From IMG/VR virus record IMGVR_UViG_3300042923_001178, positions 1 to 33,811 of that record: DNA of 33,811 bases; one strand, 5' to 3'. A model generated the notes under the pieces. The model did no database searches, was not told the DNA's origin, and was given only the letters and a program-made list of their open reading frames with translations. Numbering within the stretch: the first letter of the stretch is position 1; the number at the start of each line of letters is the position of its first letter. Below, piece after piece: positions 3,326 to 32,468 of this stretch. This DNA is from a virus. The position numbers and the translations under genes were made by a program.

Positions 3326-3589
3326 ATGAAAAAAATAGACATCGTCTACGATTATGAATTGCTGAAGGATAAAATATCGGAAAAAGGACTTACTCAAGAA
3401 ACCTTAGCACCTAAACTAAATATGAGCAGAACCTCGCTGAATCTAAAATTGAATAGCAAGTCAAACTTCACGCAAACTGAGATAAAAGTTATGGCTGAAT
3501 TGCTAAATATTCCTTCAAAAGAACTGGGGAATTATTTTTTTAAAGGTTTTGTACAGAAAAATGTACAAAATGTCAAGGAGGTGATTTAA
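3326..3589 (+). CDS. Cro-like regulator, DUF739-type HTH protein
   Basis: This 87-residue protein is the first gene of the early operon, divergent from the repressor. The N-terminal half shows the DUF739-like HTH pattern (LLKDKISEKGLTQETLAPKL, then MSRTSLNLKLNSKSNFTQTEI). Proteins of this kind act as Cro, binding the shared operators to keep the lytic state. The ATG at 3326 follows GGAGGGG with 6-7 bp spacing; upstream in-frame codons lie inside operator 4. The 3' end of the gene carries a fifth operator copy. The stop overlaps the next start (TAATG), giving translational coupling. Confidence 0.82.
   Translation: MKKIDIVYDYELLKDKISEKGLTQETLAPKLNMSRTSLNLKLNSKSNFTQTEIKVMAELLNIPSKELGNYFFKGFVQKNVQNVKEVI
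3550..3567. promoter_or_regulatory. Repressor operator copy 5, inside the cro-like gene
   Basis: TGTACAG-AAAA-ATGTACA matches the other operators but lies about 240 bp downstream, within the last codons of the Cro-like gene. It could serve as a roadblock or a looping site. No promoter is evident beside it. Confidence 0.55.
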
Positions 3590-4070: not shown

Positions 4071-4325
4071 ATGTTCAAAGAAAGAGAAATTATTTTCACA
4101 ACTAATCGAATGTATGTTAAGCCATACACTCAAAAAATTAAGTCGATTATCTGGTATAAATTTGAATCGACATGCGAAGTAGAGGATCGTTCATTTGATA
4201 GCGATGAGACACCTACGATTGCTTTATATTTCGTTATTTCAGATGATCAGTTTCAAAAGTTACAAATGGCCATCCCTAAGTTGCTACCCGATTTAGTAAG
4301 TAAAGGAGGAATTCAATATGAATAA
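4071..4325 (+). CDS. Hypothetical early phage protein
   Basis: This 84-residue soluble protein is not recognised. The ATG follows GGAGGG with 7-base spacing. It begins with a basic, aromatic stretch and contains an acidic middle (about residues 35-50). Its end overlaps the next gene by 8 bases, so it is translated as part of the early operon. Confidence 0.65.
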   Translation: MFKEREIIFTTNRMYVKPYTQKIKSIIWYKFESTCEVEDRSFDSDETPTIALYFVISDDQFQKLQMAIPKLLPDLVSKGGIQYE

Positions 4326-4611
4326 TGACAAGTTAGCCTTAACGTTAGCCGATAAGTTGATGGCAAAAGTCAACAGTTTGCTAGATGCAGAAGTTCGAAC
4401 AATTACTAACGATTTACAGGACACACAAAAGGATATTGAAGCAAAACGTACGATCTCAATAAAGATTGGAATCAAAGTCACTAGTGATCATCGAGGAATT
4501 ACCATCGATGCAGAATCAAATCATGGTCTGCCGAAACGAGAATTGGAACCAGTTGTTTATCCAATTGATGTCAATAATTCTGGACAGATAAATTTGTTCG
4601 AAGATGAGTGA
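4318..4611 (+). CDS. Hypothetical early phage protein, 97 aa
   Basis: The start is well placed after AAAGGAGG. The first 45 residues are predicted helical, and the second half has a beta pattern (KRTISIKIGIKVTSDHRGIT) and an acidic C-terminus ending FEDE. Similar small proteins with an 'RTISIKI...ITID' strand pair recur in Lactobacillales phage early regions, without known function. Confidence 0.65.
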   Translation: MNNDKLALTLADKLMAKVNSLLDAEVRTITNDLQDTQKDIEAKRTISIKIGIKVTSDHRGITIDAESNHGLPKRELEPVVYPIDVNNSGQINLFEDE

Positions 4612-4629: not shown

Positions 4630-4851
4630 ATGTTGTCGAAGGCGATCGATTACTTGGAAAAAATGCCTGCAATTGTGATGCAGGTTCGTATGAGGAAACG
4701 TGGAGAGAATTATGTATACAGTATTGAAGCGAAAACTGAGCGAGGCAGAGTAGAGACGTTTCAGCTACGTGGAAGGACTCTGTATCACCATATTTTTCAT
4801 CTGGGAAAACCAACCGAAGAAAAGGTTCTTTTCCAGTTTTCAGAACAATAA
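4630..4851 (+). CDS. Hypothetical small basic protein, 73 aa
   Basis: The frame runs to a TAA that abuts a hairpin at 4855. The protein is basic and beta-rich in its middle. The ribosome binding site is weak (GCAGGTG before the ATG). It is the last gene before the hairpin region and the replication initiator gene. No family recognised. Confidence 0.55.
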   Translation: MLSKAIDYLEKMPAIVMQVRMRKRGENYVYSIEAKTERGRVETFQLRGRTLYHHIFHLGKPTEEKVLFQFSEQ

Positions 4852-4854
4852 AAA

Positions 4855-4876
4855 AAGCCGCCAAAACTGGCGGCTT
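4855..4876 (-). terminator. Hairpin with U tract on the minus strand, upstream of rep
   Basis: AAGCCGCCA (4855-4863) and TGGCGGCTT (4868-4876) form a perfect 9-bp stem with loop AAAC. The seven A residues before it give a strong U tract only on the minus strand. There is no minus-strand gene here, so it could end an antisense transcript from the rep leader, act as a structural part of an origin, or be a weak bidirectional terminator. Confidence 0.55.
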
Positions 4877-4962
4877 CTGAGAATGGTATTTCTTATCTCC
4901 GACAAGATAAGTATACCATCCTCAGGCTATTTTTGCAAAAAACGCTGCTATTTCGGCGTTTT
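4877..4962. other. Candidate replication origin: consecutive hairpins ahead of the HUH initiator gene
   Basis: A long imperfect hairpin spans 4877-4925. CTGAG, ATGGTAT and CTTATCT pair with AGATAAG, ATACCAT and CTCAG, leaving loop CCGACA at 4899-4904. A third hairpin, AAAACGC/GCGTTTT, lies at 4939-4962. With the 4855-4876 stem, three stem-loops fill the 168-bp gap before the initiator gene. HUH initiators nick at or near hairpin loops beside their own gene, so this is the best origin candidate. Transcriptional attenuation of rep is the alternative. Confidence 0.45.
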
Positions 4963-5019
4963 ATCGTCCTTGTATTAGATACTAACTTAACGGACGTAGA
5001 AAATTCTGGGGTGTTTGTC

Positions 5020-5844
5020 ATGAAGAAATCATTTGTTAGAGAACGTAGAGTGGAAGCAGGACCATATAAAGAAATCCGACTTTACAGTAGGACGATCGAG
5101 CAGGAACGAAAATGCAGAGAACCCAGAGGTAGGAGGAAAAAAGTAACTGGCTTATCTCAAGCAAGATGGAATCAAGCCCAAAGTAAAAGAAAGGCTGCAT
5201 TGTTTCTATATGCAAATTTTGGAGAGAAAGATTACTATGCCACTTTCACTTATTCCAATCAGTTTCTCCCTGAAAAGCCTGCTGATGCAAAGCGTGATAA
5301 AGAAAACACTTTGAAAAAACTTAAAAGACTCTATGAGAAAGAAGGGTTCGAACTCAAGTACATGTGGTTTACCTCTTATCAATACGATGAGGAAGTAGGC
5401 TATATCACTCGAATCCATCACCATATCGTTTTAAACAATGGACCATCAAGGGATGCAATTGAGAATGTTTGGTCTAAAGGTCGAGGAAAGAAGAAGCAGC
5501 CTCTTGGTAGAAGGCAAGTGCAAAACATTCAATACGATTCAGATGGGATGCAAGGCTTGGTCAATTATTTAACTGGTCAAGAGAAATGGGAAAATCGCCA
5601 GTGGAAGAAAGGTCAAAAGCGATGGTCCAAGAGTCGAAACCTTAAAGAGCCACACGAAACAACGAACGATGATTATTGGTCATTTAGAAAACTAAATAAA
5701 TTAGGTATGTCCAATGATGATGGAGCAGAGGAAATTCTTAAGAGGTTTCCTCAATACCGAATTTTAGGAGACATATTAAAAATCTACGATGAGGATCGTG
5801 GATGGTATTTTAAAATCGAACTGTTCAGAAATGATGATGGATAG
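5020..5844 (+). CDS. HUH endonuclease, rolling-circle-type replication initiator
   Basis: This 274-residue protein resembles the ORF2/G2P group of replication initiators. Motif I is YYATFTYS (residues 72-79), motif II is RIHHHIVLN with the metal-binding HUH at His133-His135, and the probable nicking tyrosine is Tyr183 in LVNYLTGQ. The family signature SRNLKEP follows at 205-211. The usual Lys three residues after the Tyr is replaced by Gly. The protein should cleave one strand at the origin and stay bound to the 5' end. The ATG at 5020 follows GGGG with 8-base spacing; an in-frame TTG at 4933 would fall inside a hairpin and lacks a good site. It is the only candidate replication initiator in the window. 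Confidence 0.78.
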   Translation: MKKSFVRERRVEAGPYKEIRLYSRTIEQERKCREPRGRRKKVTGLSQARWNQAQSKRKAALFLYANFGEKDYYATFTYSNQFLPEKPADAKRDKENTLKKLKRLYEKEGFELKYMWFTSYQYDEEVGYITRIHHHIVLNNGPSRDAIENVWSKGRGKKKQPLGRRQVQNIQYDSDGMQGLVNYLTGQEKWENRQWKKGQKRWSKSRNLKEPHETTNDDYWSFRKLNKLGMSNDDGAEEILKRFPQYRILGDILKIYDEDRGWYFKIELFRNDDG

Positions 5845-5858
5845 AGAAAGAGGTAGAA

Positions 5859-6266
5859 ATGGAAAATAAACAGACGTATCTGGTCGCCTGCTTTGATAAA
5901 TCAGATTGTATCGACATGATGCAGGAAGTCTTTTTGATGTTAAACTTTGATGATCAAAACAAAGGGAAATTTTCTCCATGTATTAAAACATTGGAAATCA
6001 AATCAGAAGAAAAGGAAATCCGATTTCTTCAAAATCAGCAAATTTGCGATGCTGCATCAAACAAATTAAATGATCATTCAGCATATGCAGGAATAGTTAA
6101 GAGTGATCGCTATTCACAATTCGTATGCTTTGAAGATAAAGCACACTATGAGCGCATTTACCGAAGAACATTAGATACATTTGGGCAAAACGATAAAAAA
6201 GGATTTATTACTGAACTAATGAAGAAAGTAGGTAGAAACGATGTCTTCAAGAAATTACCAAAATAG
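5859..6266 (+). CDS. Hypothetical protein downstream of rep
   Basis: This 135-residue protein begins 14 bases after the initiator gene, behind GAGG. It looks soluble and mixed alpha/beta, with scattered cysteines. Its end overlaps the resolvase-like gene by 26 bases. Not recognised. The position between initiator and resolvase suggests a replication or recombination accessory role, which is only inference. Confidence 0.65.
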   Translation: MENKQTYLVACFDKSDCIDMMQEVFLMLNFDDQNKGKFSPCIKTLEIKSEEKEIRFLQNQQICDAASNKLNDHSAYAGIVKSDRYSQFVCFEDKAHYERIYRRTLDTFGQNDKKGFITELMKKVGRNDVFKKLPK

Positions 6267-6741
6267 AGTCAACAATGATTTAGGTGATATCTTTGAAAAA
6301 ATGATTGATCAAGGATGTTGGTACTACAGAACAAAAGAAATTGCTTTAATTGAAAAAACACCTGAACCATTTCGTGTGAAGCAGATACTCAGCGATGGTA
6401 GCATGATCGTTTATCCAATCGGGAAAGCTCAACCAGATTACAAAGGAACTCTATGGGATGGACGTGCCATTGTTTTTGAAGCAAAGATGACCACAACGGA
6501 TCGATTAAAAAAATCAGTGATCACAAAAAATCAGGCGGCGTTGTTGGATCTCCATCAAAAATTAGGAGCGATGGCAGGTGTTTGTTGCATAATCAAAAAG
6601 ACCGTTGGGTTTATCCCATGGAGTGATTGGCAGAACATGAAAGCAAAATATGGCCGTCAGTACATTATTGAAGAAGAGTTGGAAGAATATCAGGTTGCTA
6701 CGCCAGGCTACATCGATTTTCTGAAAAAAACGAATTGGTGA
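6241..6741 (+). CDS. RecU-like Holliday junction resolvase
   Basis: This 166-residue protein shows the RecU/PRFA nuclease core: QPDYKGTLWDGRAIVFEAK at residues 64-82, then KNQAALLDLH at about 96-105. Likely metal and catalytic residues are Asp66, Glu80, Lys82 and Gln98. RecU enzymes resolve four-way junctions and, in phages, process branched DNA before packaging. It starts inside the end of the previous gene with a modest AGG site. It is smaller than the host enzyme (about 200 residues), as is common for phage versions. Confidence 0.85.
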   Translation: MSSRNYQNRVNNDLGDIFEKMIDQGCWYYRTKEIALIEKTPEPFRVKQILSDGSMIVYPIGKAQPDYKGTLWDGRAIVFEAKMTTTDRLKKSVITKNQAALLDLHQKLGAMAGVCCIIKKTVGFIPWSDWQNMKAKYGRQYIIEEELEEYQVATPGYIDFLKKTNW

Positions 6742-8689: not shown

Positions 8690-9640
8690 TTAATCTAATG
8701 GTTTTTCTTCATTTGAGTCATCATGAGAAATCGATTTTAGAGAGTCAATCAAGTTGTTTTGGTCTAAAAGTTTTTGTTCTTTTAACGTAGGGAAAGTTTT
8801 AGCTACTTCATTACTAGCAGAAATAGATGCCTCAAATCCAACGCCTTGATTTAATATTTTGTCAATATTTTCAGTAACTTTTGTCATTTGACTTATTATT
8901 TCTGCGGAAGATTCTAAATCATTTTCTTCAAGAAATTTAGTCGTTAGTTGTGTATAAACTGCTAAATTGGCATTTATTTGAGCTTCTCTAACCTGATTTC
9001 GGACTTCTTCGCTAATTTCAATGGATTCTAATTGTTTGTCAAGAGCTTTAATTTGTCTATTTCCTACTTGAGATCTTTGAACAATGCTAACCAGTTTTCC
9101 CATCAGAGAAACAGCTGCTGTTGAAATAAAAGATAAAACGATCCAATTTGTTCCTACGTCAAAATTTTCAATTGATATATCAGAGTTAAATTCTTTCAAT
9201 ACGTTCATCATTCGAAAAGTATCATACAAAGTTTCACTTATCTCTGAAAACTCCTGTAAAGAAAGTTTTCTTGAAGGAAGGCTAATAATTAAGGAGTTTT
9301 CAGCCTCTTCTTCAGAATGAAGATTAAGCTCAATAAGATCATTGACGGCGGTAGCTTTATACATCAATCTTTTTATAACTGATGAAAATTGATCAAATTT
9401 GGCTCTGTCAAAAGAAGTTTGTTCGGTAGATACATTAAAAAATAGATTATTTTTTTCAATAAATTCCTTTTCGTCTTCAAACAAACCCAATTGAAGTAAA
9501 TTTACTGCCGAGTTCCAGATTAAGTTATAGTTGGTTACTTTAAAGTGAGTGACTCCTGCACGTGTAAATTCTTCACTATTGATTTTCATTAATCCTGGTA
9601 GATTTGATTTTACAATTGATTGGATTTTTCTTAATCTCAT
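8690..9640 (-). CDS. Accessory prophage protein with central hydrophobic segment, 316 aa
   Basis: This gene is transcribed against its neighbours and has its own promoter and terminator, the layout of a moron expressed in the lysogen. The protein has a helical N-terminal part, one hydrophobic stretch at about residues 163-187 (IVLSFISTAAVSLMGKLVSI), and a long helical, probably coiled-coil C-terminal half rich in Glu, Gln and Asn. The N-terminus has no signal peptide. No enzymatic motif or family is recognised. A host-altering or phage-exclusion role is plausible from context only. AAAGGGG precedes the ATG at 7 bases. Confidence 0.75.
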   Translation of the reverse strand: MRLRKIQSIVKSNLPGLMKINSEEFTRAGVTHFKVTNYNLIWNSAVNLLQLGLFEDEKEFIEKNNLFFNVSTEQTSFDRAKFDQFSSVIKRLMYKATAVNDLIELNLHSEEEAENSLIISLPSRKLSLQEFSEISETLYDTFRMMNVLKEFNSDISIENFDVGTNWIVLSFISTAAVSLMGKLVSIVQRSQVGNRQIKALDKQLESIEISEEVRNQVREAQINANLAVYTQLTTKFLEENDLESSAEIISQMTKVTENIDKILNQGVGFEASISASNEVAKTFPTLKEQKLLDQNNLIDSLKSISHDDSNEEKPLD

Positions 9641-11283: not shown

Positions 11284-11631
11284 ATGAAAGAGTTTAGCAA
11301 AGTGAATGTGTTAGGAACGCAGTATACAATTTACAAAGATACAACAGAACTCGATAAACCTTTCATTAGTGGAGCTGATGGGATCACTGACTTCACTACT
11401 AAAGAAATATTCATTGCTACCATTGATGATGGTGATCCTAATAACATGCAGGCTATGGAGCATTATGAAAAGAGAACCATAAGACATGAGCTTATTCATG
11501 CAATCTTATTTGAATCGGGTTTGGATCACAACAGCAAATGGGGAAGAGATGAAGAGTTAGTAGATTGGATTGCAATTCAATTCCCTAAGTTGTTAGCTGC
11601 ATTTAAAGCTTTAAACATTGAATCGTTTTAG
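11284..11631 (+). CDS. Phage zinc metallopeptidase-like protein
   Basis: This 115-residue protein carries HELIH (His68, Glu69, His72) in RTIRHELIHAILFESGL, and a later acidic EELVDW helix that may supply the third ligand. Small HExxH proteins are common just upstream of the packaging genes in Lactobacillales siphophages. Their substrate is unknown. AAAGGAGG precedes the ATG. Confidence 0.75.
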   Translation: MKEFSKVNVLGTQYTIYKDTTELDKPFISGADGITDFTTKEIFIATIDDGDPNNMQAMEHYEKRTIRHELIHAILFESGLDHNSKWGRDEELVDWIAIQFPKLLAAFKALNIESF

Positions 11632-11662
11632 TACCCATCTCCTAAAGAAAGGACCCTATACA

Positions 11663-11995
11663 ATGGTGTTAAGAGCAGACAGACAAGGACCCCATCGGGT
11701 AGCCTTTGAGAAGAACAAAAGGATATTGCTTAAAACTCACAACACGTGTGGCATTTGTGGTAAGCCTATTGATAAAACACTAAAGGCACCGCATCCTTTG
11801 AGTCCAGTAGTGGATCACATTGTACCAATCAATAAAGGTGGTCATCCATCAAGCATCGAAAACTTGCAACTGGCTCATTGGACATGCAACCGACAGAAGT
11901 CTGACAAGTTATATTCAATCAAAGATGAGGTACCGAAAGTTGTGGGGAACAGAAACCTTCCACAAAGCACTGATTGGGCTTCTTATGACGGTTGA
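11663..11995 (+). CDS. HNH endonuclease
   Basis: This 110-residue protein has an HNH fold: CGICGKPI and a later CN pair give the structural zinc site, and VVDHIVPINKGGHPSSIENL plus QLAHWTCNRQKSDK give the catalytic core. In cos-type phages, HNH enzymes next to the terminase genes help cut cos during packaging. The ATG at 11663 follows AAAGGA with 9-base spacing. A probable cos site lies directly downstream. Confidence 0.88.
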   Translation: MVLRADRQGPHRVAFEKNKRILLKTHNTCGICGKPIDKTLKAPHPLSPVVDHIVPINKGGHPSSIENLQLAHWTCNRQKSDKLYSIKDEVPKVVGNRNLPQSTDWASYDG

Positions 11996-12054
11996 ATAAT
12001 TTAGATACAATCATACCAAAAAGAAATTAAAAACTGATACGAGTGAAAAGAGAA

Positions 12055-12135
12055 GGGGGGATGGGTACCCCTCCGCCTTGGCGGACGAGCTTCACGCCGT
12101 CACTGTACATTTTTTCTCGCGCGACTTTTTGAAAG
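12055..12135. other. Probable cos site
   Basis: In a 150-bp gene-free gap, GC-rich DNA interrupts AT-rich surroundings: a G run, the palindrome GGGTACCC (12063-12070), the dyad CCGCC-TT-GGCGG (12073-12084), then CATTTTTTCTCGCGCGAC. Cos regions of HNH-type Gram-positive phages have this look and lie between the HNH gene and the first packaging gene. The exact nick positions cannot be given. Confidence 0.55.
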
Positions 12136-12145
12136 GAGTTAAATA

Positions 12146-13387
12146 ATGGAAATTTATGGCATTGAGTACCTAAGAAATAAGCTAGCTACTCATAAAATTC
12201 GTGTTGATTTAAGGTATAGACAATACGATATGAAGAAGAATGAATCAAGCTTCGGAATCACAATTCCACCTGAAATAAGAAAAAGATATCGATCAGTTTT
12301 AGGATGGTGTGCCAAAGGGGTGGATTCTTTGGCTGATCGTTTAGTTTTTCGTGAATTTGAACATGATGACTTTGAGGTAAATGAAATTTTTGAAGCTAAT
12401 AATCCGGATGTATTTTTTGATAGCTTGGTTTTGTCATCTTTGATTGCTTCTTGTTCTTTCGTTTATATTTCAAGGGGTGAAGGAGAAATACCTAGATTAC
12501 AAATAATTGAAGCGAGCAATGCAACAGGCATAATTGATCCAATTACTGGTTTGCTAACTGAGGGGTACGCAGTTCTCGAAAGAGATAAAGATGGAAAGCC
12601 ATCTATCGAAGCATATTTTCTGCCTGGTATAACTCATTACTATTATGCTGATGAAAATATACCGGATGAACCTATCGAACATAGTTTTGATTATCCATTA
12701 TTAGTGCCGGTAATTCATCGGCCAGATGCAGTTCGGCCATTTGGTCGTTCTCGTATTACACGATCAGGTATGTATTACCAATCATACGCAAAACGTACAC
12801 TAGAACGTGCAGATATCACCGCAGAATTTTACTCATTTCCGCAAAAATATGTTTTAGGAACAGATCAAGATTCAGAACCATTGGATACTTGGAAGGCAAC
12901 AATTTCGGCGATGCTTGAATTTACTAAAGGTGAAGACGGTGGCAGCCCTACAGTTGGTCAATTCACGACTTCTAGCATGACACCATTTACAGAGCAATTA
13001 AAAACTGCAGCGGCTGGGTTTGCTGGTGAGACAGGACTTACATTGGATGATTTGGGATTTGTTTCTGATAATCCGTCATCGGTTGAAGCGATTCGGGCTA
13101 GTCATGAAAATTTAAGGCTAGCTGGGCGTAAAGCACAACGATCGTTAGGTTCCGGAATATTGAATGTAGCATTTATTGCTGCTTGTTTACGTGATGATTA
13201 CCCCTATTTTAGATATCAATTTGCAAAAACAATTCCCAAATGGGAACCATTGTTTGAAGCTGATGCCAATACACTCACGTTGATTGGCGATGGTGCGATT
13301 AAATTGAATCAAGCAATTCCAGGTTATATCAATAGTGAAATAATTAGAGATTTAACTGGAATAAAAGGTGGCGATAGTAATGGATAA
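12146..13387 (+). CDS. Portal protein (SPP1 gp6-like)
   Basis: This 413-residue protein forms the dodecameric DNA channel at the capsid vertex. The family pattern is visible: RPFGRSRITRSGMYYQSYAK followed by RTLERADITAEFYSFPQKYVLG at about residues 190-235, and a C-terminal region with conserved NPSSVEAIRASHENL. It is shorter than SPP1 gp6 but similar to many siphophage portals. AAAGGAG precedes the ATG. It is unusual in coming before the large terminase gene. Confidence 0.88.
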   Translation: MEIYGIEYLRNKLATHKIRVDLRYRQYDMKKNESSFGITIPPEIRKRYRSVLGWCAKGVDSLADRLVFREFEHDDFEVNEIFEANNPDVFFDSLVLSSLIASCSFVYISRGEGEIPRLQIIEASNATGIIDPITGLLTEGYAVLERDKDGKPSIEAYFLPGITHYYYADENIPDEPIEHSFDYPLLVPVIHRPDAVRPFGRSRITRSGMYYQSYAKRTLERADITAEFYSFPQKYVLGTDQDSEPLDTWKATISAMLEFTKGEDGGSPTVGQFTTSSMTPFTEQLKTAAAGFAGETGLTLDDLGFVSDNPSSVEAIRASHENLRLAGRKAQRSLGSGILNVAFIAACLRDDYPYFRYQFAKTIPKWEPLFEADANTLTLIGDGAIKLNQAIPGYINSEIIRDLTGIKGGDSNG

Positions 13388-14141
13388 TGACATTGTTCCC
13401 GCATTACTTGAAAAAATCAAAAATGATTTTAGTGAGCAGACAATCAACAGTCAGAAGTTGAAGTCTGCTTTTTCTTTGCTCAAAAATCGTAAGGCCACAT
13501 ACAAAAATGTAAATGAGTTTGCTATTGAAATTGGAGAAATATTAGCAAATGTATTAGGCAGCAATATCAGCATTGACATCCTTCCTGACGGGAAAATGTA
13601 TTTTAATATTGCCGATCGGTTGCTTAATGAAACGCTGAAAAATAATTACGATTTGATTTCAAATTTTGCTATTGATGTTCAAGAGCAGTTAAACAAAGAA
13701 GCTGCAATTAAAATTAAAGGTCAGAAGCCTGATTTCAATCAAGATAGGGTAAATGGTCTTGTAAATAAAATATCTGCAGCGGAAGATTTCGATTCTGTTA
13801 AATGGGTATTAGGAGAACCAATTGTGAATTTTAGCCAAAGTGTTGTTGACGATGTTATTAAAGCAAATGTTGATTTTCATGCAAAGTCAGGTCTTAGACC
13901 AAGAATCAACAGAACCCTCGTTGGTCATGCATGTGACTGGTGTAGAAAACTAGCTGGATCATTTGATTATTACGATTTACCAGATGATATTTACAGAAGG
14001 CACGAAAGGTGTAAATGTATAGTCGAATACAAGCCAGGCGATGGGCGAAAACAAAATGTTTGGTCAAAAACATGGTCTGATCCACAAAGGGAACAAAAAA
14101 TTCAAAATAGGAAAAGTCTTAATTTGAGAAAGGATGCGTGA
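13380..14141 (+). CDS. Minor capsid/head morphogenesis protein (MuF/SPP1 gp7-like)
   Basis: This 253-residue protein overlaps the portal gene by 8 bases. The first 130 residues are helical. The C-terminal region carries the Cys/His pattern GHACDWCRKLAGSF, then RRHERCKCIVEYKPGDGRK, seen in MuF-type proteins that bind the portal and enter the procapsid. The ATG at 13380 has AAGGTGG 8 bases upstream; a GTG at 13368 overlaps that site. Confidence 0.78.
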   Translation: MDNDIVPALLEKIKNDFSEQTINSQKLKSAFSLLKNRKATYKNVNEFAIEIGEILANVLGSNISIDILPDGKMYFNIADRLLNETLKNNYDLISNFAIDVQEQLNKEAAIKIKGQKPDFNQDRVNGLVNKISAAEDFDSVKWVLGEPIVNFSQSVVDDVIKANVDFHAKSGLRPRINRTLVGHACDWCRKLAGSFDYYDLPDDIYRRHERCKCIVEYKPGDGRKQNVWSKTWSDPQREQKIQNRKSLNLRKDA

Positions 14142-14200
14142 TCCAATATCTCCCAGCGACAGGGTTATCATGCATGATCGAGATTGAAAGGGGATATTTT

Positions 14201-15610
14201 ATGACTACTAAAGTGAAATTTGGTAATCAACATCCTACTCAATCGGTAATTCTTCCATATGATAGATCTGTATCTCAAAGAGCGGTTGAAAGATACCAAA
14301 GAACTGGACGAAACTGTTACGATTGGCAAATTGATATGCTTGAACCTCTTTTGGCCATCGATAAAGATGATTTGTGGGTTCACCAAAAGTTTGGTTTCTC
14401 AATTCCACGGCGAAATGGTAAAACCGAAGTTATTTACATCGTTGAATTAGATGCGCTTGAAGAAGGATTAAGCATATTGCATACGGCTCACAGGATCAGT
14501 ACGTCTCACGCTTCGTATGAACAAGTAAAAAAACTGCTTGAAGATTCGGGATATATTGAGGGCGAAGACTTCAATTCAATCAAAGCCAAAGGCCAAGAAC
14601 GATTGGAGTTGTATGCGACTGGCGGCGTGATCCAATTTAGAACAAGAACATCTAGCGGTGGTCTTGGTGAAGGATTTGATCTGCTTGTAATCGATGAAGC
14701 CCAAGAATATACCACTGAACAAGAATCAGCGTTGAAGTATACCGTAACCGATAGCAAAAACCCAATGACGATCATGTGTGGTACACCACCTACCCCGGTA
14801 TCTAGTGGTACTGTTTTTACAAGTTATCGCGAAAAAACGCTGTTTGGTAAATCGAAGTATTCTGGTTGGTCCGAATGGTCAGTTGAGGATATGAAAGATA
14901 TCCATGATGTCGAGGCTTGGTACAATTCCAATCCTTCATTAGGTTATCATTTGACGGAAAGAAAGATTGAAGCGGAACTTGGTGATGACAAACTCGATCA
15001 CAACGTGCAGCGTTTAGGGTACTGGCCTAAGTACAATCAAAAATCTGCTATTTCTGCTAGTGATTGGTCAAGATTGAAAGTAGTAGCTTTGCCTGTATTG
15101 AAAGGACCTCTGTATGTTGGTATCAAGTATGGGAATGATGGTCAGAACGTTGCAATGAGTATTGCGGTTAAAACTTTATCCGGAAAAATATTCGTTGAAA
15201 CAATTGATTGTGTGTCTGTAAGAAATGGCAATCAATGGATCATTAATTTCTTGAGAAAAGCTAACGTAAATACAGTGGTTATTGACGGTGCCGGCGGTCA
15301 AAATATCCTAACCAAAGAAATGGCAGATTTTAAACTCAAGGATCCAGTACTTCCTAAAGTATCCGAAATCATTACCGCCAATTCGTTGTGGGAACAGGGA
15401 ATATTCCAACAAACCATTTGCCACAAAGATCAACCGTCACTAAGTTCGGTAGTTACGAACAGTGAGAAACGTAATATCGGAAGCAATGGTGGATTTGGTT
15501 ATAAATCGCAATTTGATGATAGAGATATCTGTTTAATGGATAGTGCGCTATTAGCGCATTGGGCATGCAGTATCAAGAAGCCCAAGAAAAAACAACAAAA
15601 AAGGTATTAG
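14201..15610 (+). CDS. terL: Terminase large subunit
   Basis: This 469-residue packaging motor has a Walker A variant PRRNGKTE (about residues 69-76), Walker B LLVIDEAQE (161-169, Asp165-Glu166), the coupling motif TIMCGTPP, and a C-terminal RNase H-like nuclease starting near YVGIKYGNDGQ. The first nuclease position reads GIKYGNDG rather than the classic Asp, as in some related terminases. The ATG at 14201 follows AAAGGGG at 7 bases; a GTG at 14138 is weaker. It lies after portal and MuF genes, and no small subunit was found. Confidence 0.93.
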   Translation: MTTKVKFGNQHPTQSVILPYDRSVSQRAVERYQRTGRNCYDWQIDMLEPLLAIDKDDLWVHQKFGFSIPRRNGKTEVIYIVELDALEEGLSILHTAHRISTSHASYEQVKKLLEDSGYIEGEDFNSIKAKGQERLELYATGGVIQFRTRTSSGGLGEGFDLLVIDEAQEYTTEQESALKYTVTDSKNPMTIMCGTPPTPVSSGTVFTSYREKTLFGKSKYSGWSEWSVEDMKDIHDVEAWYNSNPSLGYHLTERKIEAELGDDKLDHNVQRLGYWPKYNQKSAISASDWSRLKVVALPVLKGPLYVGIKYGNDGQNVAMSIAVKTLSGKIFVETIDCVSVRNGNQWIINFLRKANVNTVVIDGAGGQNILTKEMADFKLKDPVLPKVSEIITANSLWEQGIFQQTICHKDQPSLSSVVTNSEKRNIGSNGGFGYKSQFDDRDICLMDSALLAHWACSIKKPKKKQQKRY

Positions 15611-22320: not shown

Positions 22321-24356
22321 TCAAAGTAATGTATGCAGGCTATGATATTACAGAAAATTTGATAGTGACTTCTCTTGATCGAGGTTTGTTACCAGAGATA
22401 GAATATAATACCAAAAAAGTTGGTCGATCTGATGGTGAAAAATATGTTGATAGAACCATAGGAAGACGAACAATTCCGATGGGATTTGCATTGGTAGGTA
22501 ATGTAAACAAAAAAAGACATATACTTGCAGAAATCATTGCTCAAAAAGAACCTCAGCCATTAATTTTTAGTGACGAACCAGATCAATTATGGTATGCAAT
22601 CCCAACTGGTGATGTCGGAATTGATGATATCGTTAGAGCTGGTAAGGGTACGATAAATTGGGTTGTACCAGATGGCGTTTCTTATGATGTTAATCCTCGG
22701 ATATTTTCTAATATCTCGATTGATAGTGCAGAGAATCAAGTTTTAGATCCGGAATTTCGAAAGAAAGATAAGTATTACAAGCAATGGACCGCTCGATTAA
22801 ATGAAACGAATGGTGCTCATAATATCTTGGGTGCTGATCTAAGTGATACAAACACTATTGCTGATAAAGGCGAAGTAAAATACAACGGCTTTTACATCAT
22901 GCAAAATAGTAACAGTACAGCACGGAATTTACCTGAGCTGAAACAAGGAGATAAGGTTTGGGGACGTGTAGCACTAAGAATAGATAAGGCATTGCAAGGA
23001 GATACAAACGGATCAAAAAGTGCGGTTGCGGTGATTCAAGAATTAGATTATGCAGGCGGTAAAGTTCTTGCTTCTCATGAAGCGAAACCCGCCGCCTTGA
23101 ATTTAGACAAATTCCAAAATCTAGATATTCAGTTTTCTATTTCAAATCCAAATACCAAAGCATTAAATCTGATCACATGTCTAGCTTTAGGAAGTGCAGT
23201 TTCTTATTCAAAGATGCAGTTTAACTTAGGGGAAAAGCTCGCAGATTATGCCGAACCAACCGCTCAATTGGCAGATTATGTTGCTGTGACGAATCACGGA
23301 ACATATAAATCTTGGCCAATTATTCGTGCAACGATGAACGGTGAAAATGGTCTTGTCGGTGTTGTCAATCAGAATGATGGAATATTGCAATTTGGGACCA
23401 GTGAGGATGTTGACATCGTAAAAGGAACTAGAACTGATAAAGTTTTGAGCGCCAATATGGAGCATAACGCTGATAAATTTGAGGTCAACAAAGGCGTACC
23501 AATCTATCCGTATTTTCTATATGATCCAGCAACCCCGAACATCATTGAGGGTGATATCGATTGGGATACTGATCCAAACGGAGCCCGCCCAATTTTTGGA
23601 CCAAACAAAAAAGAAGTTTGGGCTGGACCAACGTTATATACACCATTAGCTAAAAACAGTGCAAACAAAGCAAATGGCGATTTCTTGCTACGTGCTCGTT
23701 TAAACTTTGAAGCAACAGCTAAACAAAGAGGACGGATATCACTAACTTTGCAAAGTGGAGATCAAGCAAAGCTAGGCGTTGTCGTGCGTGATAGCTCAGG
23801 TGTTAAGTCAGAGCTGATAGTTGAATTTTGGCACAATCAAACGATGATTCATTCGAAAACATTGGACAAAAAGGTGTGGACGTGGTCCTTTTGGGAGGCG
23901 TCCATTCAAAAGGTTAATGGTACGGATATTACATTTAAATTTTCTAAATGGAAATCGTTTAGTGGGGAAGGGATTATATCTTCACAGGACTATATTTTTC
24001 CAATTACAATTCCAGAATTAGCCTCAACTGATATAACTGCGTTGAATGTGTGGTATCAAGCATGGGGCGGACAAGAACCAGCATTTATGGGATGTACGGA
24101 TATCAAGTTTTACTGGAACAACGAAACAACAATCACGAATATTCCGAATCTGTTTGATGATGGGGACTTGCTAGAAATTGATGTGAAGGAACGTAAGATA
24201 ATGCTTAATGGTGTTGAGAACCGCAAGCTGCATGCATTAGGAAACACTTGGGAACGGTTCGCAATTGAACCAGGAACCACAACTGTCATGCCAGCTGTGT
24301 CATCATGGGCAAACATGTGTGATTTTGAAGTAGAACTAAGGGGGGCATATATCTAA
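22317..24356 (+). CDS. Distal tail protein (Dit), enlarged form with inserted carbohydrate-binding-like domains
   Basis: This 679-residue protein starts at a GTG behind AGGAGGGG. Residues 1-130 match the Dit N-terminal domain ([31 protein letters not shown]). Two beta-rich stretches at about 135-320 and 430-590 resemble jelly-roll carbohydrate-binding modules. The end ([22 protein letters not shown], then [12 protein letters not shown]) matches the Dit C-terminal domain. Classic Dit proteins have about 250 residues, so this is an 'evolved Dit' that may bind the cell surface directly. It forms the hub between the tube and the tail-tip protein. Confidence 0.82.
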
Positions 24357-27300
24357 TGGATTTTTACTTCACTGATCGAAAATTCAATCTACTAGGGATC
24401 GCTTCTACAAGTACTGAAGCTCCAATAGCTATTTATAATGATCAAGATATTCTTAGTATAAGCGCTGCCTCTCGAACATTCGAAGGGACGCTTATTTTTT
24501 CGGCTAAAGAACGAGATCAAGTCAAATCTATGGCGAACTATGGAAACTACATTTTGTATAAAGATGAAAATGGCCAATCCAATTTTATGACGATCATGGA
24601 AATTGAACACGATCCGAAAGAGGGCGAACATTTCATTCGAGCCGAAGATGCAGGGATGGATCTGATCAATGGATTGGTGGATGCATATAGTGCAACCAAA
24701 GCGATGACATTTGCAGAGTATTTCAAACTTTTTGCCGGAGATACTGGCTTTGAAATAGGTATCAATGAAATCAGTAATCTCAGTCGCACGTTGAAATGGG
24801 AGAGTGAAAGCCAGACGATTCTAGCTCGTTTGCTTTCTTTGGCCACTCAATTTGATAATGCAGAACTGAGTTTTTCATTTGAAATCATTGGGACACAAGT
24901 TGTGAAACGATTTGTAGATGTTCGAAAGAAGCGTGGAGCGGATAATCGAGTTACCTTGTATATGGATAAAGATATCAATAATATTGTGACTAAAGCCAAT
25001 ATCTATGATTTATGTACAGCTATCGTGGCAACTGGTGGTACGCCAGATGGCAAGAATGAACCAATTAATCTAAAAGGGTATAACTACAAAGATCAAAATG
25101 GGCGTTTTGTTCTAAACAAGACAACTGGTGTCATGCAGGACATGGAGTCAGTGAAAATTTGGAGTCGATTACTATCAAACAATAATCCAAATCCAAATGC
25201 CGGACATATCCAACGTGTGAAAACCTACGAAACGACTGATCAAAAAACACTTTGCGACAATGTTATCCGGGAGCTTGAAAAAGCGAGTCAACCAGCGATC
25301 AATTATGAAACTGATATTGCAAATTTACCTGACAACGTAAAAATAGGCGATACGATTTATTTAGTTGATGAGGAAGAAGAACTTTTGTTGAGTGCCAGAG
25401 TATTAGAGTTAACACGTATCTACTCAACAAAGGAATATAAAGCTACTTTAGGGGACTATCTTATACAAGACGGTGGTATCAGTCAATCGCTCAAAGAGTT
25501 AGCTGATCAATTAAAGCAAGCAACTACCTATGTTTGGATCCGTTATGCCGATGATGAGGAAGGGAATGGAATCAGTGCTTTGCCAGCCGGAAAAACCTAT
25601 ATTGCGATTAAGCAAGTGCTAGGTGTCCCAACAGCAAGTGATGATCCCTCAGATTATCGGGGACTTTGGGTAAAATTTGTGGGGGAAGGTGTACCTGGTC
25701 CTCCCGGAGAAAATGGTCAACCGACTTACACATGGTTAAAATATGCGGATGATTACCAAGGAACCAATATGACTGATGATCCAACCGGAAAATATTATAT
25801 TGGACTGGCAACCAACAAATTGACCTCAATCGAATCAAATGATCCGGCAGATTACAAATGGCAGCTTGTCAAAGGCGAAGATGGGCAAGATGCACATATC
25901 TATCAAGCATACTCATGGAGTCCAGATGGTACCAATCGATTTACCATTCCGTATCCGAACGAAAATCTATTTCCGATCACCCGGTTTGAAAAAACTTCTG
26001 CACGTGAGTTTGTTAATGATGATCGATGGGATATGGCTCCGGTTTTTGAAGAGTTCGGAATAAAAAAGAAATATACAATTTCTTTTGATCTAAAGTCAGC
26101 AGTTGCTGGCCCGATTCAAATATATTCTCAAAATGGCAGTGGAACCAAATATAATATTGGTTCACAAAGTGTTCAAGCTACGAAAGAATATAAACGTTAT
26201 AGCATTACCGTATGGCCAGATATTCAAACAGGCAGCACCCAGACCAAAGCGTTACTAGCTTTTTATGGCACGTATGATTCTGGAAGAATACCTACGGTTA
26301 AAAATGTAAAAATTGAATTAGGTGAGAAAGTTACTATTGATACACCAAATCCATCTGAAAGTTTTGTTGATGCCTATCCATCTTACGTCGGCACTCTCAC
26401 AACCTTTGGTGATGTTCAATCAACAAATCCATCCGACTATATTTGGCAAAGAATTTTAGGTATGAATGGAGAAAATGGAAAAGATGGTATCGCAGGGAAA
26501 GATGGTGTTGGGGTTTCTGATACAAATATTACTTATGCTCAATCGACAAGTGGCACGTCAGCCCCAACTTCTGGATGGACTATACAAGTTCCGACATTAA
26601 TTAAGGGTCAGTATTTGTGGACTAAAACTACTTGGACTTACACAGATTCTTCAACAGAAACTGGCTATACTGTTTCATACAATGCAAAAGATGGTAACAA
26701 CGGAACTGACGGAATTGCGGGAAAAGATGGCGTAGGAATTTCAAGCACGAAAATTGAATATGTATCTTCAACTTCTGGGACTGTAAAACCAACTACTGGA
26801 TGGACTACATCAATACCTAATGTACCAGCTGGATCTTTTTTATGGACCAAAACCACTTGGACATATACAGATGGAACAAATGAATCAGGTTATTCTGCAG
26901 CAAAAATGGGTGAAAAAGGGGACCAAGGTATCCAAGGACCTAAAGGATCTGATGGTCAAACATATTATACTTGGTTAAAGTATGCAGACACTCCTACTAG
27001 TGGAATGTCGGATAGTCCAACAGGAAAGACCTATATCGGATTGGCTTATAACAAAACGACAGCTACCGAATCAACAAACTATGCTGATTACACTTGGTCA
27101 TTGATCAAAGGATCAGATGGTGCTCAAGGGCCGAAAGGAGATAATGGTCAAACGCTCTATACTTGGATTAAATATGCTACATCTTCTTCTGGCGCAGGAA
27201 TGTCGGATAGCCCAACAGGAAAGACTTATATAGGTCTAGCGTACAATAAAACAACTGCAACTGAAAGTACTAATCCAGCTGATTATTCTTGGTCATTAAT

Positions 27301-28285
27301 CAAGGGCGATAAAGGCGAAACGGGTGCAACTGGACCCCAAGGACCAACGGGACCAAAAGGTGATCGGGGTATTATGGGGGTTGCCTATATGCAACCTACT
27401 CAACCAGCCGATACCACAGAAGGAGCAACATGGTTTCAAACTGAATCAACCACGAGTGATAAAATTATTGCGGTATACACATACAAGAGTGGTTGGCAAA
27501 AAAAGAAATATGCTAGTGCAACTTTAGCAGTTGAATCTCTTGATGCACTAAGCGCTAACTTAGGTGAAATCACTGCCGGAATAATAAATGGAGTAGAAAT
27601 TCAGGGAGACGGTCTATATTCTGAATATGATTATCAAATTGTATCTGGTGGAACGACTTGGCGAAAAGGTAAGTTATCAATGGCAGGTGGGTATTTTAGA
27701 AACGATTTTCAAACATATCTGAAAAGTAATGGATCTGTTCAAAATAATGGTTTCTCGCAATTTAGTCATGAAGACATTCAGTTTGTTGTTTTTCAAGGAT
27801 CTCAAAGTACGAATGCAGATAGAACGTTATCAATTACCCCATATGCATTTACTATGACTGATAGCCGTGGTCTAGGTGGGAATCTAACTTTTCAAGATTT
27901 ATATAGTATAGGAAAGACAGGAATTCCAGCAGCAAGCGGTTGGGAACAATATAATCCAAGCCCAGGTGCTTCGAATTATCCATCAGCAGAGCGTATGGGG
28001 CGTGTTGTTCAATTAGCTGGAGCGTTTAAGAATCTAAATCAATTAGCAGCAGGCGTAGAAAATGTTGTCATGGGCACTTTACCTGTGGGGTTTAGACCAT
28101 CTACACCCGTTAACTTTATTGTCCAGGCATCTGGAACGAATATTTATCTATTAACGGTGCAGACAAATGGACAATTATTATTAGCACGTCACCGTGGATG
28201 GCAAGATGGCCAGTTCAAAGATAAAGCTGTTGGGGTTAATTCCTGGTTAAATATTGCATGTTGTTTTGCAGCAGCGGACGTATAA
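24356..28285 (+). CDS. Tail-associated tip/fibre protein (Tal-type) with repeat modules
   Basis: This 1309-residue protein is the likely receptor-binding tip. Residues 1-385 follow the prophage endopeptidase-tail pattern that builds the trimeric hub. The middle is modular: two 'W-[LI]-K/R-Y-A-D...PTGK.YIGLA' units, a carbohydrate-binding-like domain (about residues 520-680), two 'G-V-G-[VI]-S...LWTKTTWTYTD' units, and two more of the first type. Short collagen-like G-x-y runs (VPGPPGENG, then DKGETGATGPQGPTGPKGDRG) join them. The C-terminal 230 residues form a separate beta domain (RMGRVVQLAGAFKNLN). It starts on the last base of the Dit gene. Confidence 0.85.
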   Translation: MDFYFTDRKFNLLGIASTSTEAPIAIYNDQDILSISAASRTFEGTLIFSAKERDQVKSMANYGNYILYKDENGQSNFMTIMEIEHDPKEGEHFIRAEDAGMDLINGLVDAYSATKAMTFAEYFKLFAGDTGFEIGINEISNLSRTLKWESESQTILARLLSLATQFDNAELSFSFEIIGTQVVKRFVDVRKKRGADNRVTLYMDKDINNIVTKANIYDLCTAIVATGGTPDGKNEPINLKGYNYKDQNGRFVLNKTTGVMQDMESVKIWSRLLSNNNPNPNAGHIQRVKTYETTDQKTLCDNVIRELEKASQPAINYETDIANLPDNVKIGDTIYLVDEEEELLLSARVLELTRIYSTKEYKATLGDYLIQDGGISQSLKELADQLKQATTYVWIRYADDEEGNGISALPAGKTYIAIKQVLGVPTASDDPSDYRGLWVKFVGEGVPGPPGENGQPTYTWLKYADDYQGTNMTDDPTGKYYIGLATNKLTSIESNDPADYKWQLVKGEDGQDAHIYQAYSWSPDGTNRFTIPYPNENLFPITRFEKTSAREFVNDDRWDMAPVFEEFGIKKKYTISFDLKSAVAGPIQIYSQNGSGTKYNIGSQSVQATKEYKRYSITVWPDIQTGSTQTKALLAFYGTYDSGRIPTVKNVKIELGEKVTIDTPNPSESFVDAYPSYVGTLTTFGDVQSTNPSDYIWQRILGMNGENGKDGIAGKDGVGVSDTNITYAQSTSGTSAPTSGWTIQVPTLIKGQYLWTKTTWTYTDSSTETGYTVSYNAKDGNNGTDGIAGKDGVGISSTKIEYVSSTSGTVKPTTGWTTSIPNVPAGSFLWTKTTWTYTDGTNESGYSAAKMGEKGDQGIQGPKGSDGQTYYTWLKYADTPTSGMSDSPTGKTYIGLAYNKTTATESTNYADYTWSLIKGSDGAQGPKGDNGQTLYTWIKYATSSSGAGMSDSPTGKTYIGLAYNKTTATESTNPADYSWSLIKGDKGETGATGPQGPTGPKGDRGIMGVAYMQPTQPADTTEGATWFQTESTTSDKIIAVYTYKSGWQKKKYASATLAVESLDALSANLGEITAGIINGVEIQGDGLYSEYDYQIVSGGTTWRKGKLSMAGGYFRNDFQTYLKSNGSVQNNGFSQFSHEDIQFVVFQGSQSTNADRTLSITPYAFTMTDSRGLGGNLTFQDLYSIGKTGIPAASGWEQYNPSPGASNYPSAERMGRVVQLAGAFKNLNQLAAGVENVVMGTLPVGFRPSTPVNFIVQASGTNIYLLTVQTNGQLLLARHRGWQDGQFKDKAVGVNSWLNIACCFAAADV
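25529..27310 (+). repeat. Repeat modules inside the tail-tip gene
   Basis: Type A units begin near 25529, 25727, 26966 and 27158; the last two are very similar at DNA level. Type B units begin near 26504 and 26729. The order is A, A, inserted binding domain, B, B, A, A. Such repeats allow recombination that changes fibre length or specificity. Confidence 0.75.
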
Positions 28286-31027: not shown

Positions 31028-31076
31028 GGAAATAGGGAACATGTTTCGAACTCGTGGACGCACGAAATATATTTCC
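31028..31076 (+). other. Folded leader directly ahead of lysin 2
   Basis: GGAAATA (31028-31034) pairs with TATTTCC (31070-31076), enclosing TTTCG/CGAAA and CGTG/CACG pairs. The stem ends exactly before the AAAGGAGG ribosome site of lysin 2. It could tune translation or protect the RNA. No known riboswitch is recognised. Confidence 0.4.
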
Positions 31077-31092
31077 AAAGGAGGCTTTAAAT

Positions 31093-31749
31093 TTGGGTAG
31101 TATAAATAATATGATTCAATGGTTTAAAGACCGAGAAGGTAAAGTAAACTACAGCCAAGATGGACGTTTGGGACCTAATAGTTATGACTGTAGTTCCGCA
31201 GTGTATTTCGCTTTGATTGCTGGTGGATTTATCCCAGTGGGAAGTATGGGGTGGACCGGATCGTTACACGATACAACTTTACCGCCTATCGCAAAAAAAA
31301 TTTCACGAGCGGAATGTCGCAGAGGTGACATTTTCCTATCAAAGTATTGGGCAAATGATGGGCATACGGGAGTCTTTTTAGATAACGGCACAATCATTCA
31401 TTGTAATGCATATGATGATAACATTCGAACAACTGTAGCAGATGGACGAATGGGCCCAGCACCAACTGAATATTATAGATTGAATAATGCAGATGATGAA
31501 AATATGCCAGATACAGAAAGTGAGGAAATGTTAATGTGGGTATTTTACCAAGCAAACAAAAATGTACCAGTTCGTTGGTTCAATGGAGAGCATGCATATG
31601 CTATCGGTCACGCTGATGAGATGAAAGCAATTCAGCAAATTTATAAAGCGAACACAGGTAAAGATGTTCCATTTTTGACAAATTGGACTGATGCAACTCC
31701 TTATCATAATCGTTTGGCCAATGTCTTGAATCGAACACCTGATTTCTAA
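31093..31749 (+). CDS. Endolysin 2: NlpC/P60-like (Amidase_5) hydrolase with C-terminal wall-binding domain
   Basis: This 218-residue protein has a catalytic domain closely related to endolysin 1 (Cys in NSYDCSSAVYF, His in DGHTGVFLDN). Its C-terminal 71 residues differ from lysin 1 but match the following lysozyme (LMWVFYQANKNVPVRWFNGE to LANVLNR). The start is a TTG with AAAGGAGG at an ideal 8 bases. Inside the gene, GAGG lies 8 bases before an in-frame ATG at 31534, so the binding domain could also be made alone. Confidence 0.85.
   Translation: MGSINNMIQWFKDREGKVNYSQDGRLGPNSYDCSSAVYFALIAGGFIPVGSMGWTGSLHDTTLPPIAKKISRAECRRGDIFLSKYWANDGHTGVFLDNGTIIHCNAYDDNIRTTVADGRMGPAPTEYYRLNNADDENMPDTESEEMLMWVFYQANKNVPVRWFNGEHAYAIGHADEMKAIQQIYKANTGKDVPFLTNWTDATPYHNRLANVLNRTPDF
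31522..31536 (+). promoter_or_regulatory. Internal ribosome site and start for a free wall-binding domain (lysin 2)
   Basis: GAGG at 31522-31525 is followed 8 bases later by ATG at 31534, in frame, predicting a separate 71-residue domain (31534-31749). The same layout occurs in the lysozyme gene. In enterococcal lysin Lys170, internal starts give binding-domain copies that assemble with the full enzyme. Confidence 0.5.
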
Positions 31750-31772: not shown

Positions 31773-32468
31773 ATGGCTAATGAAAATATGAAACTATCTC
31801 AGAATGGTTTTGAGTTGATCAAAGGCTTTGAAGGTTTAAGTTTGACCGCCTACCTAGATGCTGTCGGCGTTTGGACAATAGGGTATGGTCATACACAAGG
31901 TGTATATGCTGGAATGACTATTACTTTAGAACAAGCAAACAACTTTCTGAAGCAGGATATAGAAAACCATTTACCCGGTATTTATAAATACGTTACGGTA
32001 GAATTGAACCAAAACCAGTTTGATGCCCTAGCAAGTTTTCACTTTAATTTGGGTGTAAATATTTTACAGGGTTCTACACTGTTAACTTATATCAATTCAA
32101 AAAATTGGCAAGCAGCAGCTAACGAAATGAAAAAATATGTAAATGGAAATGGCTCTGTGATACCGGGGCTTGTGACACGAAGACAACTTGAAACAGATTT
32201 GTTTTTAACACCAGTAAATGACAATACAGTAAATGAAAGTGAGGAAATATTGATGTGGGTATTTTATCAAGCAAATAAAAATTCGCCTGTGCGTTGGTTT
32301 AATGGTCAGCATGCATATGCTATTGGACACGAAGATGAAATGAGAGCAATTCGACAAGTGTATCATGCGAATACAGGAAAAGAAGTCCCATTCTTAACAA
32401 ACTGGACAGACGCTGCGCCTTATTATAATCGTCTTGCGAATGTTTTGAATCGTAAGCCGGATTATTAA
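31773..32468 (+). CDS. Endolysin 3: GH24 phage lysozyme (muramidase) with the same wall-binding domain
   Basis: This 231-residue protein has a GH24 domain: KGFEGLSLTAYLDAVGVWTI plus GYGHT gives the catalytic set Glu20, Asp29, Thr35, with the usual spacing. It cleaves the MurNAc-GlcNAc bond. The C-terminal 71 residues are a close copy of the domain in lysin 2. GGAGGAG precedes the ATG. There is no signal-arrest-release helix at the N-terminus, so it depends on the holin. It targets a different bond from lysins 1 and 2. Confidence 0.92.
   Translation: MANENMKLSQNGFELIKGFEGLSLTAYLDAVGVWTIGYGHTQGVYAGMTITLEQANNFLKQDIENHLPGIYKYVTVELNQNQFDALASFHFNLGVNILQGSTLLTYINSKNWQAAANEMKKYVNGNGSVIPGLVTRRQLETDLFLTPVNDNTVNESEEILMWVFYQANKNSPVRWFNGQHAYAIGHEDEMRAIRQVYHANTGKEVPFLTNWTDAAPYYNRLANVLNRKPDY
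32241..32255 (+). promoter_or_regulatory. Internal ribosome site and start for a free wall-binding domain (lysozyme)
   Basis: GAGG at 32241-32244 lies 8 bases before the in-frame ATG at 32253, as in lysin 2, predicting a 71-residue product (32253-32468). The GAGG-8-ATG spacing is kept although nearby codons differ. Confidence 0.5.

Follow-up and report, generated by a model that had tools for sequence, protein, structure and literature searches.

The locus analysed here raises the question of how, and at which base, a tailed phage that carries an HUH-type initiator starts its replication. The window, i.e., the whole stretch of 33,811 nucleotides that was analysed (IMG/VR record IMGVR_UViG_3300042923_001178), holds an Enterococcus prophage that adjoins tRNA-Ser and carries a tyrosine integrase; among named genomes, that of Enterococcus innesii is closest to it. 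A preliminary description of the sequence had proposed that the gene at 5020–5844 encodes such an initiator, that a cluster of hairpins directly upstream serves as its origin, and that the nick falls in or near a hairpin, perhaps in a loop at 4899–4904. The gene product is the natural starting point.

5020–5844, plus strand: predicted HUH endonuclease replication initiator (Rep), 274 aa (profiles, alignment, AlphaFold2, Foldseek)

The complete motif set on which the initial assignment was based is present in the translated gene: YYATFTYS at residues 72–79, HHH at 133–135, Tyr183 and SRNLKEP at 205–211. The protein matches the Pfam family REP_ORF2-G2P (PF23343) with 30.9 bits against a curated cut-off of 27.8, and PHROG 3584 (replication initiation protein) with an E-value of 6.7e-56. 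In an alignment of 129 distinct homologues, whose loci were picked up via either the Rep sequence or the origin motif described below, Tyr183, N66, F67, W151 and S205 are common to all 129 proteins, and the metal-binding histidines of the HUH motif are nearly so (H133 in 125/129, H135 in 128/129). The AlphaFold2 model (pLDDT 85.6, pTM 0.82) places the catalytic Tyr183 in a helix (residues 178–185) that follows the HUH strand. When compared with BFVD by Foldseek, this model best matches phage replication-associated proteins, themselves predicted models (E 2.1e-19, TM 0.74), and microvirus initiators appear lower in the list. Fold matches in the PDB are weak (best E 0.044), and the best of them include the HUH enzymes AAV OBD, pMV158 RepB, wheat dwarf virus Rep and porcine circovirus Rep; a sequence profile search of the PDB gave no match. 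By its sequence and modelled structure, Rep is an HUH-type initiator with the HUH fold and a single catalytic tyrosine, and the proposal that a tailed phage encodes such an enzyme is borne out by both Pfam and PHROG families, the alignment and the predicted structure.

The active site is nevertheless non-canonical, as had been suspected, because the lysine expected after the tyrosine is truly missing. Of the 129 homologues, 103 have Lys and 8 have Arg at position 186, three residues after Tyr183 (Lys or Arg in 111/129), while Arg, Asn or Gln occupies it in 16 others of the family, so that Lys appears to be usual but not strictly required. Within the alignment, Gly186 occurs only in the Rep of this Enterococcus lineage. 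Since Gly is found in the window and its close kin whereas Ser (L202, 56 % identity) or Asn (L203, 54 %) takes its place in the two nearest relatives outside this lineage, the loss of Lys looks like a trait of the sub-clade. The activity of Rep could therefore be altered by the Gly that replaces it. A comparison of the rep gene with that of locus L013 gives 82 synonymous and 12 non-synonymous codon differences, and such strong purifying selection argues for a working protein. The notion that HUH initiators are unusual in Gram-positive siphophages does not hold, since sequence comparison reveals a large clade of these phages that carries them; in the family of the host, the Enterococcaceae, a relative of Rep is present in 10/105 genomes.

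If Rep is an initiator, where would it act? The region in front of its gene contains the following elements.

4853–4878 (fold 4855–4876), minus strand: hairpin 1, GCCGCC..GGCGGC followed by a minus-strand T run, predicted intrinsic terminator of a leftward unit (terminator scan)
4877–4925, no strand assigned: hairpin 2, long and imperfect, with loop 4899–4904 (fold)
4939–4962, no strand assigned: hairpin 3, AAAACGC..GCGTTTT, whose 3' end lies 6 nt before the motif core (fold)
4965–4996, plus strand: candidate origin motif CGTC-CTTGTATTAGATACTAAC-TTAACGGACG, core 4969–4986, putative nick 4972/4973 (cross-locus conservation)

The three hairpins had been noticed before, and folding confirms them: as DNA, the 175-nt region reaches -34.9 kcal/mol compared with -14.8 ± 2.7 for its shuffles (z -7.55). 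An Rfam search matched only a tRNA. Hairpins also tend to be conserved where the gene is: most relatives have them ahead of the motif. On this 5' side of the motif the median z is -2.9, with 29/42 loci below -2 against 10 % of controls and only 5/42 on the 3' side. Close relatives preserve the stems and show three compensatory pairs, two in hairpin 1 and one in hairpin 2. Throughout the Enterococcaceae, the three-hairpin order is mostly kept, the sequences of hairpin 1 differ, and the hairpin 3 stem AACGYTG/CRRCGTT is retained with changes in both arms. Stems of at least 7 occur at the place of hairpin 3 in 24 % of 119 loci, about ninefold more than in shuffles (2.8 %), and their 3' end lies a median of 6 nt before CTTG. 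Some HUH enzymes read a hairpin 5' of the nick, and the placement of hairpin 3 resembles these cases; judging from its conservation, it is probably the recognition hairpin of the initiator.

A nick within the hairpins themselves fits the comparative data poorly. Hairpin 2 is strong in the fold and its minus strand reads CTTATCTTG, a pC194-like sequence kept in the 14 closest relatives. However, the loop at 4899–4904, in which the preliminary description had placed the cut, differs in both sequence and length in L007, L012 and L013, whereas the 31-nt block CGTCCTTGTATTAGATACTAACTTAACGGAC, located 3' of the hairpins, is identical in 14/14 close Enterococcus relatives and recurs in remote phages. 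In addition, CTTATCTTG is lost in L202 and L203; being confined to the closest kin, it was rejected as a candidate site. We give a nick in the loop of hairpin 2 next to no chance.

The conserved motif lies 3' of the hairpins, about 70 bases to the right of the site first proposed. It was originally spotted in phages of Latilactobacillus and Terrisporobacter, which have CTTGTATT..TATTAnC a short way 5' of rep, the copy in the window being 4969–4986. The preliminary description had anticipated an origin next to rep, which is supported, but it had missed this motif as well as a promoter and a terminator that the hairpins contain on their minus strand. The consensus was fixed from the Latilactobacillus and Terrisporobacter loci and then scored on 38 other distinct Rep loci, where matches of at least 13/15 were found in 27/38 sense strands, 0/38 antisense strands and 0/760 shuffles. 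Using only Rep as the criterion, 13 additional Enterococcaceae loci were identified; all of them contain the motif at 11/15 or better, and 12 at 13/15 or better. A scan of IMG/VR with the exact 18-bp consensus returned 90 stretches, of which 83 are followed at a short distance by a Rep homologue encoded on the same strand; as these 83 loci were chosen by the exact core pattern, conservation of the core in that set holds by construction. The flanks lie outside the search pattern and are conserved as well (C-4 86/108, G-3 98/108, C+25 82/108, A+27 87/108), giving the extended consensus CGNG-CTTGTAATRGGTATTAWC-nnnnCnnCNA. These flanks are mostly missing in motif matches without Rep. Among the seven stretches of the exact scan that lack Rep, two end at most 70 nt from the motif and one at most 483 nt from it.

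The reversed control pattern yielded a single match in IMG/VR, and the exact consensus none in 299 genomes of the phylum, which implies a very low chromosomal background for the motif. A more degenerate pattern for the variant of the window gave 40 matches, 23 of them with Rep; the others look like chance because the conserved flanks are mostly absent. No copy of the motif was detected close to Rep in the remote homologues L021, L049 and L059, and only a partial one in L040 and L050–L052. Two individual matches may be recorded here. Positions 3341–3358 of L076, just before an HNH gene on a 5-kb contig, are the only Rep-less match with the full flanked motif. The sole match of the reversed pattern, L160, is a 4.3-kb contig, possibly of a microvirus, with a weak Rep-like ORF (E 1.2e-4).

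At the putative nick site the window reads CTTGTAT, not the CTTGATA heptamer of pC194/phiX174-type double-strand origins, and most relatives read CTTGTA. The exact plasmid/phiX heptamer CTTGATA does occur in Butyrivibrio phage Arawn (L020, 3942–3978), where CTTGATAAAAGTATTAACTTACCGAC, otherwise a motif of the phage type, stands 44 nt before Rep. A flanking stem CGTCC..GGACG (4965–4969 with 4992–4996), which would present the nick motif in a loop, can be drawn in the window and some relatives, but it was discarded as it does not exceed permutation (p 0.05 overall, 0.14 in Enterococcaceae).

Conservation in front of a gene could also reflect regulation. The motif might regulate rep, as an operator or in some other way, or be a site of Rep autoregulation, the nick being elsewhere: it lies upstream of rep in nearly all cases, and initiators of the pC194 family act from the origin to silence the promoter of their own gene (PMC5703833). 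However, it lies at distances from rep that differ by hundreds of nt, it has no operator symmetry, and the gap between its two AT-rich halves is too short for a -35/-10 pair. Moreover, it starts with the CTTG of known HUH nick sites, CTTGATA being the conserved dso nick site of Rep_1 initiators (PMC10378824). We regard a regulatory site with the nick elsewhere as unlikely and keep to the motif as the probable place of the nick.

Hairpins 1 and 2 also contain a predicted leftward transcription unit that ends in the terminator of hairpin 1.

4910–4938, minus strand: predicted leftward promoter, -35 TTGCAA at 4938–4933, 17 nt, extended -10 TGG-TATACT at 4915–4910 (conserved spacing to the motif)

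The -10 and the spacer are held in the right arm of hairpin 2, and the expected minus-sense RNA would be roughly 50 nt long. Taken alone, the promoter of the window is not above chance, and it is the comparison across loci that carries the claim. Minus-strand terminators are predicted in 34/54 related loci, against 4/54 for the plus strand and 3 % of controls. An extended -10 promoter on the minus strand with its far edge 55–65 nt 5' of CTTG is found in 33/101 non-redundant loci, mostly at 59–63 nt, whereas the next best 11-nt bin holds 7 loci; the distance of 59–63 nt recurs in many unrelated phages. The spacer is 17 nt long in 28 of 35 promoters and TG is present in 30 of them, and in 15 Enterococcaceae the CAA of the -35 and most of the -10 are invariant.

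As to the role of the leftward RNA, we infer either antisense control or a single-strand origin. A free antisense RNA limiting rep expression, similar to plasmid ctRNAs or lambda OOP, would account for an extended -10 promoter close to the consensus with an intrinsic terminator behind it, a combination far above expectation on the minus strand, and Rep of RCR plasmids is known to be controlled by antisense RNAs (PMC5703833). However, the predicted RNA spans only the leader well upstream of rep, hairpin 3 is unconvincing as a plus-strand attenuator, and the fixed distance to the nick motif is left unexplained unless Rep touches the promoter. We put this reading somewhat below an even chance.

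The position of the promoter within a fold brings to mind Frpo of F and the sso of Gram-positive plasmids, in which case host RNA polymerase would read the promoter on the folded displaced plus strand and prime the complementary strand. The fold of an sso is indeed recognised by RNA polymerase as a promoter (PMC4595007), and the strand of the unit and its side of the nick are as required. When the plus strand folds, the promoter spacer takes part in base pairing, with the highest values in Enterococcaceae (up to 0.90 in L206, L207 and L211). Averaged over 59 loci, however, this pairing is little above the segment mean (0.64 vs 0.54). Priming needs neither an intrinsic terminator nor a good double-strand promoter, and in plasmid ssos a fixed distance from the nick is not required. 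Moreover, the CS-6 box of ssoA-type origins (TAGCGA/T) is absent from both strands of 4845–5019. To a single-strand origin we assign a probability only slightly lower than that of the antisense RNA.

Combining these elements, we consider it very probable, from sequence comparison and the structural model, that the locus is the rolling-circle replication module of a temperate siphophage and that Rep nicks in the motif at 4969–4986. Rep would bind the origin upstream of its own gene, probably via hairpin 3, and Tyr183 would nick the plus strand within the motif, by analogy most likely at CTTG^TATT, between 4972 and 4973. Rep would then remain on the 5' end while host helicase and polymerase extend the 3' end, presumably rightwards, and displace the plus strand. 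The leftward unit in hairpins 1 and 2 would be part of the origin and make the minus-sense RNA, which may serve as an antisense RNA that sets the Rep level or stem from a single-strand-origin promoter that primes the displaced strand. More generally, and somewhat short of an even chance, a large clade of Gram-positive tailed phages may have in common a compact rolling-circle origin that includes, as an integral component, a leftward promoter at a fixed distance of about 60 nt from the nick site. The activity of this promoter, be it on double- or single-stranded DNA, would be coupled to Rep action. Upstream negative supercoiling that opens the nick site, a contact between Rep and RNA polymerase, and priming of the displaced strand are examples of such coupling.

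The remaining gene content of the early region is in keeping with such a scheme. Searches with Pfam and PHROGs, which may miss replication genes of high divergence, recognised no helicase, primase, helicase loader, SSB or other initiator among the early and middle genes, and the phage presumably uses host replication proteins instead. Only one other replication or recombination gene was recognised near rep.

6241–6741, plus strand: RecU-like Holliday junction resolvase (Pfam RecU E 2.5e-14, PHROG 843 E 7.3e-39)

Several other features of the genome deserve mention. Two genes upstream of rep, 4318–4611 encodes a 97-aa protein that weakly resembles PHROG 997 (replication terminator, E 5.5e-4). 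A 316-aa ORF at 8690–9640, possibly an accessory gene, lies on the minus strand amid rightward genes and matches no Pfam or PHROGs family. The packaging genes at 11618–15610 follow an unusual order, i.e., HNH endonuclease, portal, minor head protein and large terminase. In the 1309-aa tail protein (24356–28285), several collagen-like Gly-X-Y stretches lie between repeated modules of the LWTKTTWTYTD type. Finally, two successive lysin-like proteins (31054–31749 and 31773–32468) differ in their N-terminal halves and share a near-identical C-terminal stretch, EE.LMWVFYQANKN.PVRWFNG.HAYAIGH.DEM..I.

The Rep family itself is already annotated. In the literature covered, which was incomplete, we found neither the origin motif nor its hairpin nor the promoter spacing described, and the paper on the Latilactobacillus phages does not mention rolling circle. 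Our comparisons across more than 100 related phage loci point to a shared and apparently undescribed start site, which combines a nick motif and hairpins with a leftward promoter at a fixed distance. Many tailed phages had a replication gene with only a generic label, and this result provides them with an origin that can be tested at single-base resolution; it also suggests that the CTTG nick signature of plasmids and ssDNA phages marks dsDNA siphophage origins too. That the leftward promoter keeps a fixed distance from the nick motif was not expected, and it suggests that transcription and nicking are linked. The active site without Lys provides a natural case for testing the role of this residue in HUH enzymes.

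How does this module compare with known systems? The closest are the siphophage initiators of PHROG 3584/PF23343, exemplified by the Latilactobacillus TMW phages, Terrisporobacter TPDSL_ph2, Butyrivibrio Arawn and siphovirus models in BFVD, which belong to the same family over nearly the full length, occupy the same gene position and, in most cases, have the same upstream motif. The Rep of the window departs from them in that the Lys three residues after the catalytic Tyr is replaced by Gly, followed by an insertion. The origin of phiX174, CTTG^ATATTAATAAC, is cleaved after CTTG. Like the motif described here, it is about 30 nt long, with CTTG at the cleavage site and then an AT-rich stretch, and the CTTG^TA of the window resembles CTTG^ATA in the phiX174 and pC194 nick sites. 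However, the sequence after the cut differs, the gene A protein has two Tyr where one is conserved here, and phiX174 is an ssDNA phage rather than a dsDNA tailed phage. P2 gpA is likewise an HUH-type initiator of a tailed phage, but works with two Tyr; Rep does not match the Pfam family Phage_GPA (phiX174 A, P2 gpA) and has only one conserved Tyr in motif III. With the pC194-type Rep_1 plasmids (dso nick CTTGATA, PMC10378824) the module has in common a single Tyr, a CTTG nick, an origin upstream of rep and Gram-positive hosts, whereas Rep has no Rep_1 match in Pfam, has T rather than A after the G of its putative site and is without the acidic residue four positions before the Tyr (Glu210 in pC194). 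Lastly, Frpo of F and the sso of RCR plasmids have, as here, a promoter in a folded strand beside the leading-strand origin, but the leftward unit differs from them in being without a CS-6 box, in being followed by an intrinsic terminator and in keeping a fixed distance to the nick motif.
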